Origin: a virus
Direction: 5' to 3' (one strand)
Length of the DNA stretch: 43,655 nucleotides
IMG/VR virus record: IMGVR_UViG_3300027754_000176
Location: 1-43,655 of that record
Both the position numbers and the translations under genes were made by a program. How positions within the stretch are numbered: the stretch's first letter is position 1; every line of letters begins with the position of its first letter. The notes under the pieces are model-generated. The model saw only the letters and a program-made list of their open reading frames with translations. It was not told the DNA's origin and ran no database searches. Of the stretch, positions 23,694 to 43,434 are shown one piece after another.

Positions 23694-24263
23694 ATGAGTA
23701 ATACTTCAGACGCAGTTAAACTTTGGAGACAAAGAACAAAAAATAGAATAGTAAAATCTTTTGGGGGCAAATGTAATGTTTGCGATTATGATAGATGTCC
23801 TACAGCTTTAGAATTACATCATTTAGATCCTTCAAAAAAGAATTTTTCTTTCGGATCTGTAAGAGCAGATCCTAAAAAATGGTCTATAATAGTTGAAGAA
23901 TTAAGAAAATGCATAATGCTTTGTGCCAATTGTCATAGAGAAGTGCATTCTGGTTTTATTGATTTACCAGAAAATTTAATTTTCTTTAATGAAGATTTTG
24001 TAAATTACGAAAGCGTATATAAAAAAGCTGATTTAAATGAATGCCCAATTTGTAAAAATTTAAAAAATAAAAGATTAACTACTTGTTCAAAAAGTTGTTC
24101 AGCAAAACTTTCTTTTAGTATTGACTGGGATAAATTTGATTTATATGATTTGCATGTAGTAAAAAAAATGCATAACACTCATATAGCTAAAATGGTTGGT
24201 TGTAGTGATGCCGCAGTCATTAAAAGACTTAAAAAATTAAGAATTTATAAATTGTGCTGGTAA
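23694..24263 (+). CDS. HNH homing endonuclease
   Basis: 189 residues. The zinc-HNH core is clear: CNVCDYDRC (about 28-36), ELHHLDPSKKNFSFGS (about 41-56, with the HH of the motif), and CIMLCANCHREVHSG (about 80-94). A second CPICKN/CSKSCS zinc-knuckle pair (about 117-136) and a C-terminal helix-turn-helix (HIAKMVGCSDAAVIKRLKKL) should provide DNA recognition. The gene lies between tRNA-Asn and a degenerate tRNA-Thr, a common landing site for free-standing homing endonucleases. It probably spreads itself at the expense of related phages. Confidence 0.85.
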   Translation: MSNTSDAVKLWRQRTKNRIVKSFGGKCNVCDYDRCPTALELHHLDPSKKNFSFGSVRADPKKWSIIVEELRKCIMLCANCHREVHSGFIDLPENLIFFNEDFVNYESVYKKADLNECPICKNLKNKRLTTCSKSCSAKLSFSIDWDKFDLYDLHVVKKMHNTHIAKMVGCSDAAVIKRLKKLRIYKLCW

Positions 24264-26110: not shown

Positions 26111-26318
26111 TGTAGTTTTATCAAATGAAGAAATTCAATTAATTTTTGAAGCTTTAGATCATCTTTATTACGAAAGCCAAAGAGCTTCACAAGAAAGACA
26201 TGTAGATCATTTGCCAAAATTAAAAGATCACTTTTTAAATAAAAAAAATAAAACAAAAAAGTTACGCAAACGAATTGCCAACTGCACTGGTAAAATAAAT
26301 TATTTAACTTCTATTTAA
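26100..26318 (+). CDS. Hypothetical basic helical protein, 72 aa
   Basis: Unrecognised. The sequence is helical and rich in Lys/His/Glu (SNEEIQLIFEALDHLYYESQ, KKNKTKKLRKRI), with no zinc or membrane motif. It starts inside the last codons of the glycosyltransferase gene and ends eight bases into the convergent GIY-YIG gene. It may be a small nucleic-acid-binding protein, judged only from charge. Confidence 0.5.
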   Translation: MKANVVLSNEEIQLIFEALDHLYYESQRASQERHVDHLPKLKDHFLNKKNKTKKLRKRIANCTGKINYLTSI

Positions 26319-27048
26319 TTTTTCTACCTTTTTTCCATCCTTTCTGTAGAAAGAAATCAATTTCTTCATTATTTACTTTAATACATTTTTTTGTTTCTAT
26401 ATTTATGATCATTTTTTTTCCCCTACATTTTTGACCTCTATCAAATAAAATCCAATTAGCATTTAAATATTCATTCAATAATTCTTTTTTAATAAATTTT
26501 CTCTGCTTTGTTAAAGTATTTTCCATTAAATAACTATTTTTTTTAGTTTCTGAATTTTTCTTTCGTTGATCTTCACTTTGAATTTTTTTCTTACCAGATT
26601 TTGACATTTTCTCTAAACTTTCTGGTAAAAATCCCAATTCCCAACCATCTACAAGATATTGCGGTAGATTAACTAAATCTACTTTTGTTGTTTGTTTTGT
26701 TAATTTATTATGAATAATTTTTTTTCCAAGGCATGATGTGTGTTTTTTTTGCTGTTTTATAAAATCAAAACCTCCATCTCCTCCAATTTTTAAATTATAA
26801 CACATTGAATTTTTAATTAAATCATCTGTAACAAGTTCTTTTTCTTTAGCATAAGCATCTTTTCTTTTTGTAAAAATATGTAATATTATTTTTTCAAAAT
26901 TTTCAATTCCATATTTTTTTATTGCCGCTTTAATATTGAATCCAGATCCATAATAATTATCATTAATATCTTTAGTCTTGTGAACTCCAATATAAAATTT
27001 ATTATTAATTTTATTTACTATCTTATAAATAACATAAAAATGATCCAT
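26311..27048 (-). CDS. GIY-YIG homing endonuclease
   Basis: 245 residues from the ATG at 27046-27048 (MDHFYVIYKIVNKINNKFYIG). This start is chosen because a GTGTAA element precedes it directly. The GIY-YIG variant FYVIYKIVN...NKFYIGVHKT is followed by YGSG, a helix with KYGIENFEK and Glu71-region KEKELV, and N-rich YNLKIGGDGG, all typical. The C-terminal two thirds hold three repeats ending in GWELG, NWILF and GWKKGRK, NUMOD-like DNA-binding modules. It is inserted on the minus strand between plus-strand genes, overlapping its convergent neighbour by eight bases. A mobile element. Confidence 0.85.
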   Translation of the reverse strand: MDHFYVIYKIVNKINNKFYIGVHKTKDINDNYYGSGFNIKAAIKKYGIENFEKIILHIFTKRKDAYAKEKELVTDDLIKNSMCYNLKIGGDGGFDFIKQQKKHTSCLGKKIIHNKLTKQTTKVDLVNLPQYLVDGWELGFLPESLEKMSKSGKKKIQSEDQRKKNSETKKNSYLMENTLTKQRKFIKKELLNEYLNANWILFDRGQKCRGKKMIINIETKKCIKVNNEEIDFFLQKGWKKGRKIK

Positions 27049-27062
27049 GCAATATATTACAC
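27049..27062 (-). promoter_or_regulatory. GTGTAA element before GIY-YIG gene
   Basis: On the minus strand GTGTAATATATTGC abuts the ATG at 27048. Homing endonuclease genes in T4-like phages also often carry their own late promoters. Confidence 0.5.
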
Positions 27063-27112
27063 GCAAACATTATCAAACATTAAAGTAGAAAGGCAGGGTT
27101 AATCCAATCGGA

Positions 27113-29108: not shown

Positions 29109-29193
29109 TGGTTTATATACGCCAGATACTGATGAAGTTTGGCATAGCGATTATCGTTTTCGTAAATTGGAGCGTCAAGTTACAATGCAATAA
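28909..29193 (+). CDS. Putative outer-membrane spanin lipoprotein (Rz1-like), overlapping frame
   Basis: 94 residues, starting 76 bases inside the preceding gene in another frame and ending 85 bases beyond it. A basic N-terminus (KRNSAKKSK) leads into a hydrophobic stretch (LGLKALTILTISLML) and LCSC, an acceptable lipobox with the second Cys as the lipidated residue. After that come NSVPNKSTANIYQP and a conserved-looking tail (IQTSDGLYTPDTDEVWHSD). The nested arrangement and signal-peptidase-II motif suggest an outer spanin that acts with the inner one to disrupt the outer membrane. It implies a diderm host. It could alternatively be an unrelated lipoprotein. Confidence 0.55.
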   Translation: MTSSKNQEIVKRNSAKKSKILGLKALTILTISLMLCSCNSVPNKSTANIYQPLILRLKAKQTIQTSDGLYTPDTDEVWHSDYRFRKLERQVTMQ

Positions 29194-29708
29194 TGGAATT
29201 ATCAAAAACAAATTTAGCTACAATTTTTGCTTGTAAAAAAGGTTATAAAATTTTAAATGGCAAAGTTTTTACTCCAAAAGGTAAAGAATTAAAATTAGCG
29301 GATAATTATAAAGGTTATCCTAAAATAGCTATTCGTCTAAATAAAAAATCTTATACAGTACCTATTCATAAAATAGTTGCATATCAAAAATTTGGAAATG
29401 CAATGTTTGATAAAGGTGTACAAGTTAGACATTTAAATGGAAATAAATGGGATTTTTCATTTGATAATATTGAAATAGGAACACAGTCTGATAATAGGCA
29501 AGATATTCCAGCTGAAAAAAGAAAAGAAATTGGATATAAAGTAAATTTTGAAAGAAGAAAATTATCCAAAGAACAAGCGGACGAAATAAGAAAAACTTAT
29601 CTATTCCCAAATGGAAAAAGAAAATCTATGCTTAAAATAGCTATCGAATATGGAGTTAGCAGATCTGCAATCAAAAATTTAATTCATAACGAAACATATC
29701 TTAGATGA
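29193..29708 (+). CDS. HNH homing endonuclease with C-terminal HTH
   Basis: 171 residues. The core VPIHKIVAYQKFGN... KGVQVRHLNGNKWDFSFDNIEIGTQSDN is an HNH_3 domain (H of IHKIV, H of RHLNGNK, N of DNIEI). The C-terminal segment LSKEQADEIRKTYL... MLKIAIEYGVSRSAIKNLIHNETY is a helix-turn-helix DNA-binding module common in such enzymes. It overlaps the lipoprotein stop by one base and the thyX start by four (ATGA). It is a mobile element inserted just before thyX. Confidence 0.85.
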   Translation: MELSKTNLATIFACKKGYKILNGKVFTPKGKELKLADNYKGYPKIAIRLNKKSYTVPIHKIVAYQKFGNAMFDKGVQVRHLNGNKWDFSFDNIEIGTQSDNRQDIPAEKRKEIGYKVNFERRKLSKEQADEIRKTYLFPNGKRKSMLKIAIEYGVSRSAIKNLIHNETYLR

Positions 29709-34109: not shown

Positions 34110-34397
34110 ATGCAGGGTTCTACATTTATATCAGTACCTATTGACAAATTTAATGAATTTATTGTTGAAGCACTAACAGAACATAAAGCGTCAAAATCTT
34201 TAATTGATCAAGTTGCATATCATAAATTTCATCAACTGAATTCTTTTTCTAAACAATTTATTAATGAAATTATTAATAATTATTATGGAATTCATTATGT
34301 AGGATTAATTCCTGATTCTCAACATGATCTTATTTATAAACTTCAAGTTATTGATAAAAAACTTTGTACATTTTTTCTTTTAAAATATGCTAGTTAA
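34110..34397 (+). CDS. Hypothetical protein, 95 aa
   Basis: Unrecognised. The first part reads STFISVPIDKFNEFIVEALTEHKASKSLIDQ and the rest is rich in aromatic and His residues (YHKFHQLNSFSKQFINEIINNYYG). It heads an operon with a leaderless-type promoter and overlaps the nucleotidyltransferase gene by 11 bases. No membrane or metal motif is evident. Confidence 0.5.
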   Translation: MQGSTFISVPIDKFNEFIVEALTEHKASKSLIDQVAYHKFHQLNSFSKQFINEIINNYYGIHYVGLIPDSQHDLIYKLQVIDKKLCTFFLLKYAS

Positions 34398-34830
34398 TAC
34401 TAAAACAGTAGTTATTGTTTCTGGTGGATTTGATCCAATTCATTCTGGACATATTCAATACATAAATGAAGCAAAAAAATTAGGTGACATTTTGTATGTT
34501 GCTCCAAATACTGACGAATGGCTTACGAAGAAAAAAGGGAAACCTTTTTTGAATTGGACTGAAAGAGCTACAATTTTATCAAATTTAAAAGCTGTTGATT
34601 TTATAATTGAATTTGATGATTCAGACGGTTCTGCAAAAGATGCGATTCTTCATGTTAGAGAAAGAAATCCACTTACAAAAATTATTTTTGCAAATGGAGG
34701 AGATAGAACTAAAAACAATATTCCAGAAATGGATTTGAAAGATGATAATTTGGAATTTGTATTCGGAGTTGGCGGCGAAACAAAAGCTAACTCTAGTTCT
34801 TGGATTTTAAAGAATTGGCAAAATGAGTGA
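34387..34830 (+). CDS. Cytidylyltransferase-like nucleotidyltransferase (HldE/TagD type)
   Basis: 147 residues. The HxGH signature is intact (GGFDPIHSGHIQYI, His19 and His22), followed by AKKLGDILYVAPNTDEW, a WTERATIL helix and IIFANGGDRTKNN, then the GVGGETKANSSSWIL tail corresponding to the ISSTxL motif of the fold. The NGGDRTxxNIPE pattern is closest to the ADP-heptose synthase (HldE C-terminal) group. This could supply nucleotide-heptose for the split GT9 enzyme at 4554-7620. Other sugar- or glycerol-phosphate substrates remain possible. Confidence 0.75.
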   Translation: MLVNTKTVVIVSGGFDPIHSGHIQYINEAKKLGDILYVAPNTDEWLTKKKGKPFLNWTERATILSNLKAVDFIIEFDDSDGSAKDAILHVRERNPLTKIIFANGGDRTKNNIPEMDLKDDNLEFVFGVGGETKANSSSWILKNWQNE

Positions 34831-35251
34831 TTCAAGCGCAGAACAAAAATTAAAAGGAGCCATGATCTTCAAATACTTGAAGACTGGTAAAATGCCCAAG
34901 CGTAAAGGTTTATTTAGAATTCTATTTTATTTAGCTGGACAGCATAAACACTTTGTTGGAATCAACATGACATCTTCAAGTATTACAAATAAAAGACCAA
35001 ATGTTGACAGAACAATAGAAATTAAAATTCTTCCTTCAAAATTAAATGAAGATTTATTGAATAAAGCTCTTAAAAAGTATTTAGTAGAATACGAATTAAA
35101 ATTTCATCTATTTTATGCGACAATATATTATTCATCAAGTCAGATTCAGTGGTCATTGATCGACGAAGAACTTAGAACAAACCATTCAGAAAATATAATT
35201 GAAAAAGACGGCTTTCCAAGAATTAAAGATTATCAATATGAAAAAAAATAA
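34823..35251 (+). CDS. Hypothetical protein, 142 aa
   Basis: No family recognised. A basic N-terminal third (KLKGAMIFKYLKTGKMPKRKGLFRILFYLAG) precedes an alpha/beta region (TIEIKILPSKLNEDLLNKALKKYLVEYELKFHLFYATIYYSS). It overlaps the nucleotidyltransferase gene by eight bases and the next gene by 14, so it belongs to the same translationally coupled set. Confidence 0.5.
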   Translation: MSDSSAEQKLKGAMIFKYLKTGKMPKRKGLFRILFYLAGQHKHFVGINMTSSSITNKRPNVDRTIEIKILPSKLNEDLLNKALKKYLVEYELKFHLFYATIYYSSSQIQWSLIDEELRTNHSENIIEKDGFPRIKDYQYEKK

Positions 35252-35519
35252 ATACCAATTAATTGATCAAGATTCATTTTATCGAGCATTTAAACAATGG
35301 CTTGAATCTGGAAGTGAGCCTTTTAATTTAAAAAATGAAGATCAAATGAATGAAAAATGGCTTAAATTTGCAGATGATCTTGGAATTTATTTAGGACAAA
35401 AAAATGGAGATAAATTGTTTGCTGAAATTGTAGACAATATTTGTTGGAAAGAAGCAAAAAAATATTATTCAATAATTTCGTATGAAACCAATGTTGAAAC
35501 TGACGAAGTGTCAGTATGA
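35238..35519 (+). CDS. Hypothetical acidic protein, 93 aa
   Basis: Start at 35238 (MKKNKYQLIDQDSFYRAF), inside the last codons of the previous gene. Helical and aromatic, with WLESGSEPFNLKNEDQMNEKW and a C-terminal YYSIISYETNVETDEVSV. Nothing specific is recognised. It overlaps the following phosphoesterase gene by up to 38 bases. Confidence 0.5.
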   Translation: MKKNKYQLIDQDSFYRAFKQWLESGSEPFNLKNEDQMNEKWLKFADDLGIYLGQKNGDKLFAEIVDNICWKEAKKYYSIISYETNVETDEVSV

Positions 35520-37229: not shown

Positions 37230-38321
37230 ATGCAAACTCAAACTGCCGCAACAATTAATACAATTTCTTTGTCTCCAACCGAATTAAAAGAAGCAATCTA
37301 TGACTGCTTTGAAGTTCGTCAACCAGTAATGATTTGGGGGCCACCAGGGATTGGTAAATCAGACATCATTCATGAAATTGGTGAAGAAACTAATCGCAGA
37401 GTAATTGATATTCGTCTTGCTTTATGGGAGCCAACAGATATTCGTGGCATTCCTTATTTCGATAGCGAATCTAAGGAAATGAAATGGGCAGCACCATCAG
37501 AATTACCAAAGGTAGTTACTGACAATTCTATTGTTTTTCTTGATGAAATGCCTAGTGCAGTTCCAACTGTGCAAGCAGGTGCATACCAACTCATTCTTAA
37601 TCGTAAGATTGGAGAGTATCAACTACCTCCAGCAGTTGACATTGTTGCTGCTGGAAATAGAGAGAATGATCGGGGTATCTCATATAAGATGCCTGCGCCA
37701 CTGGCAAATCGCTTCACTCACGTTGAATTAAAACCTAATTTTAATTGTTGGCTGAATTGGGCTATTAAGAATGACATTGACTCTTCAATCGTAGGATATC
37801 TATCTTGGTCTAAGAAAGATTTATATGATTTTAATCCTAAGTCTGCCTCCAAAGCATTTGCAACTCCTCGTAGTTGGACTTTTGCTAACAAGTTTATTAC
37901 TAAAGGCAAGCGTTCAAAATCTTCAGAGAGTTTACTGACTGCGCTTCTGGCGGGAACAATCGGAGAAGGTCTTGCAATTTCTTTCATGACGTTTAAGAAG
38001 ACTACTGCAAAACTTCCAAAGGTAGAAGATATTCTATCTGGTAAATTAAAGAAGTTTTCTTATAAGAAAGATATTTCTTTGTTGTACTCTATAATTGCAA
38101 ATTGTTGTTTGGAATTAAAAGAAACTATTAATGATAAAAATTGGCTAACTCATGTTGATAATTTCTACCGATTCATGCTTGACAACTTTCCACAAGAAGT
38201 TATTGTGATGGGAGTTAAAACATCGATTAGAAATTATAAATTACCAATCGATCCCGAAAAACTTACGACGTATAAGGATTTCGTAGAAAAAGTAGAAAAA
38301 TATATCTTCATACAAGAATAA
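37230..38321 (+). CDS. MoxR-type AAA+ ATPase
   Basis: 363 residues. Walker A GPPGIGKS (37-44), Walker B IVFLDEMPS (101-109), an arginine-finger region (RFTHVELKPN) and sensor motifs identify a MoxR-family AAA+ ATPase. MoxR proteins act as chaperones or remodelers with a VWA-domain partner, and that partner is the next gene, four bases downstream. The first two thirds are less AT-rich than the surroundings, as for a highly expressed gene. The client in phage infection is unknown. Confidence 0.85.
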   Translation: MQTQTAATINTISLSPTELKEAIYDCFEVRQPVMIWGPPGIGKSDIIHEIGEETNRRVIDIRLALWEPTDIRGIPYFDSESKEMKWAAPSELPKVVTDNSIVFLDEMPSAVPTVQAGAYQLILNRKIGEYQLPPAVDIVAAGNRENDRGISYKMPAPLANRFTHVELKPNFNCWLNWAIKNDIDSSIVGYLSWSKKDLYDFNPKSASKAFATPRSWTFANKFITKGKRSKSSESLLTALLAGTIGEGLAISFMTFKKTTAKLPKVEDILSGKLKKFSYKKDISLLYSIIANCCLELKETINDKNWLTHVDNFYRFMLDNFPQEVIVMGVKTSIRNYKLPIDPEKLTTYKDFVEKVEKYIFIQE

Positions 38322-38325
38322 AATT

Positions 38326-39516
38326 ATGAGCCTCTTCAATAAAGAACAAGATCTATCAATTGAAGAGAAGTTGATCGCCTCAAAGGTGCAGATGCTTATG
38401 CGTCTGCCCTTTTTTGGCAGTCTAGCTTCTGGATTAAATGTCAAAGTTGTTGACTGGGAATTTGAAAAAGGAGTTCCCATGACTGCCGCAACAGATGGAA
38501 GCAATTTCTTTTATAATCCAGAGGGTATTAAAGATTTTACAATTGCTGAATTAATGTGGCTGTACGCTCACGAAGTGAGTCATGTATGTTGGCAGCATTT
38601 CATTCGCATGGGAGAAAGAAATAAAACTCTTTGGAATATTGCCACTGATTATGTAATCAATGGTTTATTGAGAATAAATAAAATAGGCAAAGCTCCAAAA
38701 AATCATTTAGATGATAAAAAATTTGATGGAATGACTGCGGAGCAGGTATATAATATTCTTTATAAAGAAACTCCCAAATTAAATATTGATCAGCTATCCA
38801 AGATGCTTGCAGATAAACATATGGATATGGATAGAAACGAAGATGGCTCACCAAAAAGCGAAGAGGAAAAAAAACAGTTAGTTAGTAAAATAAAAGAAGA
38901 TTTAATTAAAGCTTCTCAAACCATGGATGCTGGATCAATTCCAGCTGGATTTGATAGACTTATTAATGGTATTACTTGCCCTCAACTTCCTTGGCAAGAC
39001 ATACTTAGAGATAGAATTAAATCAAAAATAAAAACAGATTTCTCTTTCATGCGACCTAATCGTAGAAGCGGAAATATGGATGGAATTATCTTTCCAAGTA
39101 TGACTGTTGAAGATGAAATTGATATTTGTATTGCAATGGATATGTCGGGATCTATTGGTGATGATATCGCAGCAGAATTTATGGGTGAAATTAGCGGTAT
39201 TATTTCTGAATTTAATTCATGGAATATTAAGATTTGGTCTTTTGATACAAAAGTATATAATGAAAAAGATTATTCATCTTACGATGATTCAAATATTTTG
39301 GAATACAAACCAAAAGGTGGCGGAGGTACTGATTTTGAATGCAATTGGGAATACATGAAAAAGTTTGACATTGAACCAAAACTATTTATTATGTTTACTG
39401 ACTTATATCCATGCGGTGGATGGGGTGATGCAAATTATTGCGACACTTTATTCGTTGGTTATGGTTCATGTAGAGCAGTAGCTCCATTTGGAGAAACAAT
39501 TTACATACAACAATAA
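38326..39516 (+). CDS. VWA-domain metalloprotein (DUF2201-like), MoxR partner
   Basis: 396 residues. The N-terminal zincin-like domain has HEVSH (82-86) followed by a second His (HFIRMGERN) and a helical DYVINGLL, as in DUF2201_N putative metallopeptidases. The C-terminal VWA-like domain carries the MIDAS motif DMSGSIGDD (about 271-279), with GGGGTDF near 328 and FTDLYPCG near 358. The ATPase-VWA pairing is like RavA-ViaA or the MoxR-CoxE sets: the ATPase remodels a client held by the VWA protein. It may process or assemble virion proteins or act on host complexes. Confidence 0.8.
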   Translation: MSLFNKEQDLSIEEKLIASKVQMLMRLPFFGSLASGLNVKVVDWEFEKGVPMTAATDGSNFFYNPEGIKDFTIAELMWLYAHEVSHVCWQHFIRMGERNKTLWNIATDYVINGLLRINKIGKAPKNHLDDKKFDGMTAEQVYNILYKETPKLNIDQLSKMLADKHMDMDRNEDGSPKSEEEKKQLVSKIKEDLIKASQTMDAGSIPAGFDRLINGITCPQLPWQDILRDRIKSKIKTDFSFMRPNRRSGNMDGIIFPSMTVEDEIDICIAMDMSGSIGDDIAAEFMGEISGIISEFNSWNIKIWSFDTKVYNEKDYSSYDDSNILEYKPKGGGGTDFECNWEYMKKFDIEPKLFIMFTDLYPCGGWGDANYCDTLFVGYGSCRAVAPFGETIYIQQ

Positions 39517-41492: not shown

Positions 41493-41527
41493 TTAGCACT
41501 CTACACTTGACAACTGTAGAGTGCTAA
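41493..41527. promoter_or_regulatory. CIRCE-like inverted-repeat operator
   Basis: A perfect 13-bp inverted repeat, TTAGCACTCTACA (41493-41505) and TGTAGAGTGCTAA (41515-41527), is separated by nine bases. The outer nine bases of each arm equal the CIRCE half-sites TTAGCACTC and GAGTGCTAA bound by HrcA. Here they are 17 bases apart instead of nine. The -35 box of the promoter lies in the loop, so a bound repressor would block transcription. As RNA it could also fold into a terminator-like hairpin. Confidence 0.65.
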
Positions 41528-41542: not shown

Positions 41543-41848
41543 ATGAAAAAAATACTGTTCCTTGTTCCTCTAATATTCGTCGGTGCTAAAGTAAGTTCCG
41601 AACAATTAATCAAGCCAGCAAAAGAAGAAATTACTTTTGAAATTAAAAAACCCGCTCAATTAATCAATTGTCCACCAGCGGCCTGCGCAGGCTTTTCTCC
41701 AGAAAATATAATTACTACCGTTTCTCAAAACGATGTAGCGCCATACGTACATTGTACTAGTTGTAGAATGGGAGTATTTCTTGGCAATGAAAACGAAGAA
41801 AAGAAATGCACTTACTGTGGCGTAAAAGAACATTATGAACCCAGATGA
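41543..41848 (+). CDS. Exported zinc-ribbon protein under CIRCE-like control, 101 aa
   Basis: Signal peptide MKKILFLVPLIFVGAKVSS, then a Pro/Cys segment (LINCPPAACAGFSP) and a zinc ribbon with CTSC and CTYC knuckles (about residues 75-95). It has the same architecture as the gene at 41178: exported, C-terminal CxxC pair. The promoter lies within the inverted repeat at 41493-41527, so it may be induced by heat or envelope stress if host HrcA binds. Its TGA overlaps the first member of the tandem array (ATGA). Confidence 0.6.
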   Translation: MKKILFLVPLIFVGAKVSSEQLIKPAKEEITFEIKKPAQLINCPPAACAGFSPENIITTVSQNDVAPYVHCTSCRMGVFLGNENEEKKCTYCGVKEHYEPR

Positions 41849-41937
41849 ATATATTGAAGATACTGCCGATAGAGCTATTTCTTGAATTAGAAAAAGAATA
41901 TCCCTATTTATCAGGTCCATATGATTATGGAAATTAA
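41845..41937 (+). CDS. Truncated first member of the tandem paralogue array, 30 aa
   Basis: An ATGA overlap with the preceding gene starts MNILKILPIELFLELEKEY, and it ends YDYGN-stop. Its last 11 bases overlap the next gene's start (TATGGAAATTAA), the same 11-base overlap seen between all later members. The C-terminal Tyr-Gly corresponds to the LKYG ending of the paralogues. It is probably a deletion remnant of a full 79-residue member, still keeping the coupling junction. Confidence 0.5.
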   Translation: MNILKILPIELFLELEKEYPYLSGPYDYGN

Positions 41938-42178
41938 TGAAATAGTTACAATTCGCGCCGATAAATATTGGGAAATATTTAATGATATTTGCAATCAAAC
42001 ACCAGAAGACGAATGGTGGCTTGTTAATAGAGACGTATTAGATGAAAGATTTTTTGGATTACGCAATTGCAAAACTCCACGCGAACATCAGTCCGTCGTA
42101 CCTTGGGAGTTGGATAAAACATTTATAATTATAAATAAACAAAAATTTCTTTGGATTAAATTGAAGTATGGAATATAA
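41927..42178 (+). CDS. Tandem paralogue 1, 83 aa
   Basis: Start at 41927 is fixed by the conserved 11-base overlap with the upstream member. The N-terminal part is unique (MEINEIVTIRADKYWEIFND... FFGLRNCKTP). The C-terminal FIIINKQKFLWIKLKYGI is the family signature. The fold is unknown: a short helix-rich N-terminus followed by a strand-turn-helix. It has no membrane segment. Expression probably depends on termination-reinitiation from the upstream member. Confidence 0.6.
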   Translation: MEINEIVTIRADKYWEIFNDICNQTPEDEWWLVNRDVLDERFFGLRNCKTPREHQSVVPWELDKTFIIINKQKFLWIKLKYGI

Positions 42179-42407
42179 GATTTCATCTAATAATTTTTGG
42201 AATAAACTAAGATGCCATTATCCTGTATATAAAAATTGGCATCTTAAAGATCCAAGAATTCAAAAAATAAGTAAATCTCTACTTGGTCTTAAATTCATAA
42301 ACACAGAATTTTCTGATCAAATTGACAAGCCATACAATACTTATTTTAAATTTGAAATAATTAATAAAGAAAAATTTCTTTGGGCGCAATTAAAATATGA
42401 TTTATAA
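42168..42407 (+). CDS. Tandem paralogue 2, 79 aa
   Basis: MEYKISSNNFWNKLRCHY opens a variable N-terminal half. LLGLKFINTEF and FKFEIINKEKFLWAQLKYDL are the shared C-terminal blocks. It overlaps the previous member by 11 bases (its ATG lies in the Tyr-Gly codons of that member). Its central LGLKFxxTE block is also found in paralogue 5 (LGIK... LSFLKTE), which supports common descent despite low identity. Confidence 0.6.
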   Translation: MEYKISSNNFWNKLRCHYPVYKNWHLKDPRIQKISKSLLGLKFINTEFSDQIDKPYNTYFKFEIINKEKFLWAQLKYDL

Positions 42408-42636
42408 AAAAACAAAATTCTCAAAATTATATTTGGATCATGGATTATCTGAAGAGGAAGTTCAAAGGATGCATTTTACTTGGAGGGAAGAGCGATACGA
42501 AGAAGAATACTTAACAATGACATGGAGAAATTTCCTAGAAACTATTGGTTTATCTTTCGAGAGAGATCGAGTACCCAATTGGAAAATTAAAAACAAAGAA
42601 AAATGGCTTTGGGCTAAATTAAAATATGGAATCTGA
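42397..42636 (+). CDS. Tandem paralogue 3, 79 aa
   Basis: N-terminal MIYKKTKFSKLYLDHGLSEE, an acidic/basic helical centre (REERYEEEYLTMTW), then FLETIGLSFERD and the family signature WKIKNKEKWLWAKLKYGI. The 11-base overlaps on both sides are retained. It is the most charged member. Confidence 0.6.
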   Translation: MIYKKTKFSKLYLDHGLSEEEVQRMHFTWREERYEEEYLTMTWRNFLETIGLSFERDRVPNWKIKNKEKWLWAKLKYGI

Positions 42637-42850
42637 AATGTTACCACTTGATTTAACTTTGAAATTAAGGGAATTGTATTTAAGTCAACATTTTGTTGAT
42701 CTTTCTGCAAATTGGCGTAGACTTCCAGCAAAGCTTGGTTTAGCTTCAATTGATGACGAAGGTTATTGGTCAAATGATGAAAAAGAAGGCTATTTAAAAA
42801 TAGTAAATAAAGAAAAATTTCTTTGGGCACGATTAAAATATGGATTCTAA
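42626..42850 (+). CDS. Tandem paralogue 4, 74 aa
   Basis: MESEMLPLDLTLKLRELYLSQ, then ANWRRLPAKLGLASI and the signature YLKIVNKEKFLWARLKYGF. Slightly shorter than the others because of a deletion between the LGL block and the signature. The 11-base junctions are the same. Confidence 0.6.
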   Translation: MESEMLPLDLTLKLRELYLSQHFVDLSANWRRLPAKLGLASIDDEGYWSNDEKEGYLKIVNKEKFLWARLKYGF

Positions 42851-43079
42851 TATAGCATCAATTCATATTAAAAATTTTGAAGAAGTTTTTACTGCTTTTC
42901 ATGGAATTTCAACTGAATATGCAATTGAAATATTAGGAATTAAAGATTATGAAGTAATGAATCAAGAACTTGATAGAGCATTTGGATTAAGTTTTCTCAA
43001 AACAGAAGGTCCAAATTATATATTTAGAGTTGAAGATAAAAATAAATATTTAATGGCTAAAATTTTATACGGGGCTTAA
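42840..43079 (+). CDS. Tandem paralogue 5, 79 aa, most diverged
   Basis: MDSNIASIHIKNFEEVFTAF, a middle region (LDRAFGLSFLKTEGPNY) close to the LGLxFxxTE block, and a diverged signature FRVEDKNKYLMAKILYGA. Its stop is followed one base later by the next ATG, so the array's 11-base overlap ends here. It is the last member of the array. Confidence 0.55.
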   Translation: MDSNIASIHIKNFEEVFTAFHGISTEYAIEILGIKDYEVMNQELDRAFGLSFLKTEGPNYIFRVEDKNKYLMAKILYGA

Positions 43080-43080
43080 T

Positions 43081-43434
43081 ATGGGATTAGATTCACACTG
43101 TTATGCAGTAAAACTAGGGGATGTAATTGATGATTTTTCTTTTAAAGAAAATAGTCAAAAAGAAGAAATCATGTATTGGAGAAAGCATTTCCCTCTACAT
43201 AGGTGGGCTACTAGACTATTTAAAAGAAAAGGCGGAGATACGTCTCAGCACCAATTCAATTGTGAGTACGTGAGAATTACTTTAGAAGATTTGGAATTTT
43301 TAAAAGATGACATGGATTGGCTAGACGAATATCCATTTCAAAAAGCTGATTATGATGATTTTGCTTTTATTGAGAAAGCTACTTTTTATTTAAAGAGTTT
43401 AAAAAAAGCATTGTACTTTACAAGTTGGTATTGA
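43081..43434 (+). CDS. Conserved phage protein beginning MGLDSHCYA, 117 aa
   Basis: The MGLDxxxYA start and the acidic, aromatic body (EEIMYWRKHFPLHRWATRLF, CEYVRITLEDLEFLKDDMDWLDEYPFQ) belong to a small-protein type common in phages, whose role is unknown to me. It follows the paralogue array by one base and precedes a new promoter. There is no metal or membrane motif. Confidence 0.6.
   Translation: MGLDSHCYAVKLGDVIDDFSFKENSQKEEIMYWRKHFPLHRWATRLFKRKGGDTSQHQFNCEYVRITLEDLEFLKDDMDWLDEYPFQKADYDDFAFIEKATFYLKSLKKALYFTSWY

Follow-up and report, generated by a model that had tools for sequence, protein, structure and literature searches.

Small paralogous phage genes whose tail codons probably double as the start of the next gene

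Introduction

Translationally coupled overlapping gene pairs (PMC6728339, PMC10666635) resemble the array reported here in that the genes lie on the same strand, the overlap is short and the second gene begins within the tail of the first. Overlaps of 11 bases are rarer than overlaps of 4, 1 or 8, and an overlap of 8 bases is reportedly enough to lower the efficiency of reinitiation (PMC10666635). Initiation without Shine-Dalgarno (SD) sites offers a second comparison; A at position -3 raises initiation in Flavobacterium johnsoniae and Escherichia coli and is a positive determinant in SD-less bacteria (PMC6847099). No relevant literature was found on phage gene arrays of the present kind. We analysed an uncultured virus record of 43,655 bases in IMG/VR (the whole stretch, hereafter the window) and its relatives. 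The main new points are a wider protein family, variation of the array by single genes, and an explanation of the overlap in which a C-terminal motif doubles as a start site.

Results

Five full-length ORFs lay head to tail on the plus strand at 41927-43079, with lengths of 83, 79, 79, 74 and 79 codons, and both the ORFs and their order agreed with the preliminary description of a tandem array of small genes. Each was recovered by a leave-one-out profile, i.e., one built without the tested member and without its orthologues: w1 at 41927-42178 (83 aa; E 4.5e-10), w2 at 42168-42407 (79 aa; 3.4e-11), w3 at 42397-42636 (79 aa; 8.5e-7), w4 at 42626-42850 (74 aa; 1.7e-9) and w5 at 42840-43079 (79 aa; 2.1e-6). 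The 30-codon ORF0 (MNILKILPIELFLELEKEYPYLSGPYDYGN; plus strand, 41845-41937) came before w1 and overlapped its own preceding gene by 4 bases and w1 by 11 bases. An overlap of exactly 11 bases was present at all five array junctions including ORF0-w1, as originally claimed. These were, with the percentile of the start context among gene starts, ORF0-w1 at 41927-41937 (ATGGAAATTAA; 0.07, a poor context), w1-w2 at 42168-42178 (ATGGAATATAA; 0.73), w2-w3 at 42397-42407 (ATGATTTATAA; 0.74), w3-w4 at 42626-42636 (ATGGAATCTGA; 0.83) and w4-w5 at 42840-42850 (ATGGATTCTAA; 0.48), all on the plus strand.

The junction had been described as a Tyr-Gly motif and the next start codon at once. The ATG stood at all five junctions, and the exact string TATGGnnnnTAA matched only three of them; w2 ended in TATGATTTATAA (Tyr-Asp) and the stop codon of w3 was TGA. 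His replaced the motif Tyr in some relatives (CATGG), and Ala replaced Gly in the dispersed member w0, indicating that the position of the ATG is kept and not the Tyr-Gly pair. The C-terminal signature was likewise confirmed as similarity among the C-terminal halves, but w5 diverged from it (DKNKYLMAKILYG). In w5 the Tyr codon was TAC; TAATATGGG followed, and there was no long overlap with the neighbouring gene. ORF0 could not be upheld as a truncated copy. Against the family profile, 4322 of 5000 shuffles scored as high as ORF0 itself, and its match to w4 was weak (7 of 500 shuffles as high, the best of 35 comparisons). A full member, p1, occupied the slot of ORF0 in the related phage L094, and ORF0 is a possible remnant of a first member.

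Leave-one-out profiles recovered every family member (E 4e-4 to 1e-13), and no non-member fell below an E of 0.007; the similarity was far above chance and the array genes are paralogous, as first proposed. When the proteins were split at the conserved Gly-Leu and each half was compared with 2000 shuffles in 14 groups, no shuffle reached the score of the C-terminal halves in any group. The w0 and m3 types alone had N-terminal halves with a clear signal, and those of w2 and l7 gave a weak one; the N-terminal halves of the array genes were near noise, the best being w2 (38 of 2000 shuffles). At the level of sequence, the strong N-terminal difference noted earlier was therefore correct. Searches with the family alignment and with neighbouring genes yielded 35 members of 66-105 aa in six related IMG/VR phage records: the window, 3300010158_000067 (L004/L014), 3300034104_006814 (L094), 3300032287_004273 (L005), 3300032235_001069 (L073) and 3300044624_003683 (L074). 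Most deep forks of the family tree were without resolution. A weak and distant 36th candidate was seen on the minus strand of L066 (G019; ORF 1155-1439, E ~0.003); it ended K-Y-D-stop, and the following ORF started inside that end with an 8-base overlap.

No match to the array family above noise was obtained in Pfam, PHROG, NCBIfam, PADLOC or PDB sequences. The best match to a described family (E 0.002) was a PHROG of unknown function with half the protein covered, and the scans as a whole would be expected to give about 0.06 matches of this strength by chance. In cultured phages, tblastn with w2, m3 and m1 found no relative and only weak partial matches (E at least 4), and a pattern search of bacterial genomes (GTDB contigs) gave no family relative. 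The array genes are an undescribed family of small single-domain proteins in related uncultured tailed phages. Another small protein family, represented at 35238-35519, resembled the array family in the apparent order of its elements and had CWKEAKKYYSIISY as a C-terminal motif. In profile searches it was repeatedly one of the best non-members, but was rejected as kin of the array family when the profile-profile comparison was not significant.

The array locus lay between two plus-strand syntenic markers that held the same place in L014 and L094: a small zinc-ribbon-like protein with an N-terminal hydrophobic segment (41543-41848) and an MGLDS-type protein of 117 aa (43081-43434). Between them the gene order was ORF0-w1-w2-w3-w4-w5 in the window, w2-w3-w5 types in L014 and p1-p2-w2-w3-w5 types in L094. 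Copy number therefore varied as expected from the preliminary description, with 5 genes (plus ORF0), 3 genes and 5 genes between the same flanks, and all internal junctions of this first array were 11 bases in the three phages. L014 and L094 were sisters (AAA protein 90% identical, each 85% identical to the window). Both lacked an orthologue of w4, so that w4 was either gained in the line of the window or lost in the other line. The p1 and p2 genes were present in L094 and absent from its sister; p1 had no ordinary start codon near its apparent beginning. The orthologues of w2, w3, w5 and w0 were retained in the same order in all three phages; their frames were intact and their core was conserved.

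Family members also occurred singly and, further on, in a second array of 4 genes in L014 and 5 in L094 (L014 18394-19373; L107 808-2093), in which the overlaps were 4, 20 and 23 bases and not 11. The dispersed sixth member of the window, w0 (plus strand, 34110-34397; 95 aa), lay outside the array and overlapped an unrelated nucleotidyltransferase gene (34387-34830) by 11 bases (ATGCTAGTTAA); its orthologues in L014 and L094 also had an 11-base overlap with the next gene. Among the accessory genes of the window, those at 26311-27066, 23694-24263 and 29193-29708 may encode homing-type endonucleases, looking GIY-YIG-like and HNH-like by eye. Unequal recombination would be a plausible source of array growth. 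Recent gene conversion of the 3' ends found no support outside w2/w4; synonymous codons there agreed no more often than expected from codon usage, the exception being w2/w4, which shared 10 of 11 synonymous codons (P = 0.024, the best paralogue pair among about 46 pairs tested).

The earlier reading of the 11-base overlap as a mark of array growth was not supported, because the same overlap joined single members to unrelated genes and the second array used other lengths. Besides w0/l0/p0 with the nucleotidyltransferase gene, m1/n1 overlapped a 71-73-codon ORF and m2/n2/o2 a sigma-factor-like gene by 11 bases. With a codon-usage gene caller, 11-base overlaps followed 12 of 16 member genes and 4 of 88 non-member same-strand pairs (Fisher P = 1.6e-9, a value that is optimistic since the records are related); counted by orthologue group, they were present in 9 of 16 (P = 2e-6). 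Twenty-one members ended in the motif plus one residue. When the Tyr/His codon was TAT or CAT, the next gene started at the resulting ATG in 15 of 15 cases; when it was TAC (share in the genome 0.20), the next gene started elsewhere in 6 of 6 cases from two orthologue groups. This indicates that the overlap depends mostly on the tail. Genes of the m2 type ended I-Y-E-N, yet reached the 11-base overlap another way.

Start contexts were analysed in the whole window, L014, L005 and L073. No SD excess was observed upstream of genes (matches of at least 4 bases in 7% vs 10% in shuffles). Start sites were rich in A from -11 to -8; 58% had A at -3 and 46% had T at -1, and TTAAAAT-ATG, from the L-K-Y codons, fitted this favoured context. 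Most array genes ended with the codons of L-K-Y-G-x-stop (TTAAAATATGGnnnnTAA), and the 11-base overlap arises because the K-Y-G-x-stop codons give an ATG in the favoured A-rich context. Junctions after w1-w4, l1, l2 and m1/n1 ranked at percentile 0.48-0.98 of real starts, and those after w1-w4, l1 and m1/n1 outranked at least 91% of other ATGs. Start contexts at the ORF0-w1 and m2-type junctions were poor, showing that the context rule is not universal. Alternative starts existed for w1 (41921), w4 (42638) and the gene after m1. The absent SD excess and the A-rich starts hint at an SD-less host. Bacteroidota-type promoters were rejected as host evidence: TANNTTTG occurred at chance level (82 vs 81.6), and the two-box form, slightly above chance (8 vs 3.3), did not lie at the beginnings of operons. 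The idea that the tail forms a conserved RNA hairpin (AAAGAAAAATTTCTTT in w2 and w4) was also discarded, the hairpin being broken by eye in w1, w3 and relatives.

AlphaFold2 models made with 24 members in the alignment predicted a compact beta-alpha-alpha-beta-beta-alpha domain for w2 (pLDDT 84.6, pTM 0.70) and the same order of elements for m1 (pLDDT 79.7, pTM 0.66), and this single fold is predicted for the family proteins. The motif formed the end of strand 3 and the C-terminal helix 3, and in the models it is therefore part of the core and not a tail. The suggestion that the common C-terminus serves as a docking site is disfavored by its place in the core of the w2 model. A fold search of the PDB gave no convincing match (VIA-align Z at most 4.6, no Foldseek E below 0.1, no family singled out); in the comparison with ferredoxin-like and related alpha-beta folds, the best VIA-align Z was 4.6. 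A similar predicted fold was found in two uncharacterised proteins of 75-76 aa, A0A6J5LH00 of an uncultured phage and A0A411B7T6 of Aeromonas phage Asswx_1 (best Foldseek probability 0.98 each, TM ~0.5). However, E was 0.03-0.08, identity was 10-17% and no sequence link tied them to the array family.

Between the window and L014, the identity of w2, w3 and w5 was 0.36-0.53, that of several small neighbours 0.49-0.58 and that of the AAA and vWA proteins 0.80-0.85. In w5 the N-terminal half was 0.14 identical and the C-terminal half 0.61; the respective values were 0.43 and 0.69 in w3, and the halves hardly differed in w2 (0.41 and 0.45). dN/dS was about 0.5-1.3 in the N-terminal halves of w2, w3 and w5, near saturation of dS, so that diversifying selection and relaxed constraint were inseparable; the fast N-terminal change may come from relaxed constraint and not from diversifying selection. 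Conserved single members (w0/l0/p0 and m3/n3/o3) changed more slowly. At 37230-39516 of the window, a MoxR-type AAA ATPase adjoined a vWA/metallopeptidase-like protein; relatives of the latter occurred in 778 records of cultured phages, among which jumbo phages ranked best.

An inverted repeat with perfect 13-bp arms and a 9-nt loop lay around a TTGACA box on the plus strand at 41493-41527, upstream of the zinc-ribbon gene and about 320 bases before ORF0. It was a strong predicted hairpin (z -3.8). The box belonged to a promoter-like site, and such sites were at chance level in the window. The repeat occurred only once in the window, and its core with 10-bp arms had no match in any other viral contig. 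CIRCE operators have 9-bp arms separated by 9 bases. The repeat was similar in its half-sites, TTAGCACTC and GAGTGCTAA, but these were 17 bases apart and the 13-bp arms were longer; the idea that the array stands behind a CIRCE-like operator fails on this spacing.

Discussion

The whole is best explained, and we think probably, by a family of accessory proteins whose tail codons double as the start of the next gene. In these AT-rich phages without SD signal, the L-K-Y-G-x-stop codons would supply both an A-rich start context and an ATG. This tail ATG would start whichever gene comes next, paralogue or unrelated, 11 bases before the stop, and each such gene would span from the ATG in the tail of its predecessor to the ATG in its own tail. 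Single genes could then be inserted or lost with both neighbours left intact; that relatives differ by having or lacking single genes was observed directly, and insertion or loss by this route is what we infer from it. Reading of the array would be coupled by termination and reinitiation, or ribosomes would initiate directly at the A-rich site. Termination-reinitiation calls for a stop that overlaps the next start or is only a few bases away from it, and the 11-base overlaps place them so. One predicted fold would combine a C-terminal core that stays constant with an N-terminal part that changes fast, and the proteins are most likely fast-evolving, host-interacting accessory proteins, each with its own partner. 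Against this explanation, the second array, with overlaps of 4, 20 and 23 bases, does without the 11-base seam, which is therefore not needed in an array. A stronger version, in which the C-terminal codons are a universal seam (core, start and exchange site at once) through which phages shuffle inhibitor cassettes with different N-terminal targets, is unlikely.

Other functions were weighed against the same data. A multi-inhibitor or anti-defence set, in which every paralogue would use its variable N-terminal part to block a host defence or host protein of its own, is a tentative possibility with somewhat less than an even chance. Array size and content differed among relatives, N-terminal halves diverged fastest in w5 and w3, and the proteins were small with no enzymatic family match, all consistent with such a set. 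However, nothing known matched above noise, PADLOC (which holds defence proteins, not their inhibitors) gave hits at E 0.004-0.014 and no better, dispersed members stood beside nucleotidyltransferase and sigma-factor-like genes and formed no recognisable anti-defence island, and the conserved singles were slower to change. The proteins could instead be subunits of one heteromeric complex, with coupled translation fixing their stoichiometry, since short overlaps are enriched among subunits of such complexes (PMC10666635), and a fixed overlap with a common core could support hetero-oligomers. An obligate fixed complex predicts neither three copies in one relative against five in the others nor singletons of the family, and we regard this reading as rather unlikely.

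It is quite unlikely that the paralogues are nearly neutral duplicates produced by small-gene churn of a large phage genome and lacking separate functions. Gain and loss of single genes and the N-terminal dN/dS values would fit such duplicates, but conserved order, intact frames and the kept core argue otherwise. It is very unlikely that the 3' end is retained for a signal in the RNA, either a start region or a recombination seam, and not for the protein. The junction DNA was alike in w1, w2, w3 and w4, and the w2/w4 codon sharing would agree with a signal of this kind; however, the motif was kept in members without the overlap or with C-terminal extensions (w5, l4-l7, m4) and with other codons, and synonymous identity was at the level that codon usage predicts.

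Paralogue arrays and overlapping genes are already known; what is new in the favored reading of tail codons as start site is a conserved C-terminus that doubles as the start of whatever gene follows. It gives a testable picture of how gene-dense phages without SD signals could swap small genes and leave the operon unbroken, and it brings to light a new, fast-evolving family that could target host proteins.

Compared with known systems, coupled overlapping pairs usually overlap by 4, 1 or 8 bases, whereas the phage array overlaps by 11, a length that comes from a conserved C-terminal protein motif. Unlike in the usual coupled pairs, this overlap recurs at paralogous and unrelated junctions alike, in phages without SD sites, where translation may be coupled. 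The start sites resemble the Kozak-like context of F. johnsoniae (PMC6847099) in the A at -3, the A-rich upstream stretch and the lack of SD excess. They differ in that the A-rich stretch lies further upstream in F. johnsoniae, whereas in the phages it is strongest from -11 to -8 and comes from the coding end of the preceding gene.
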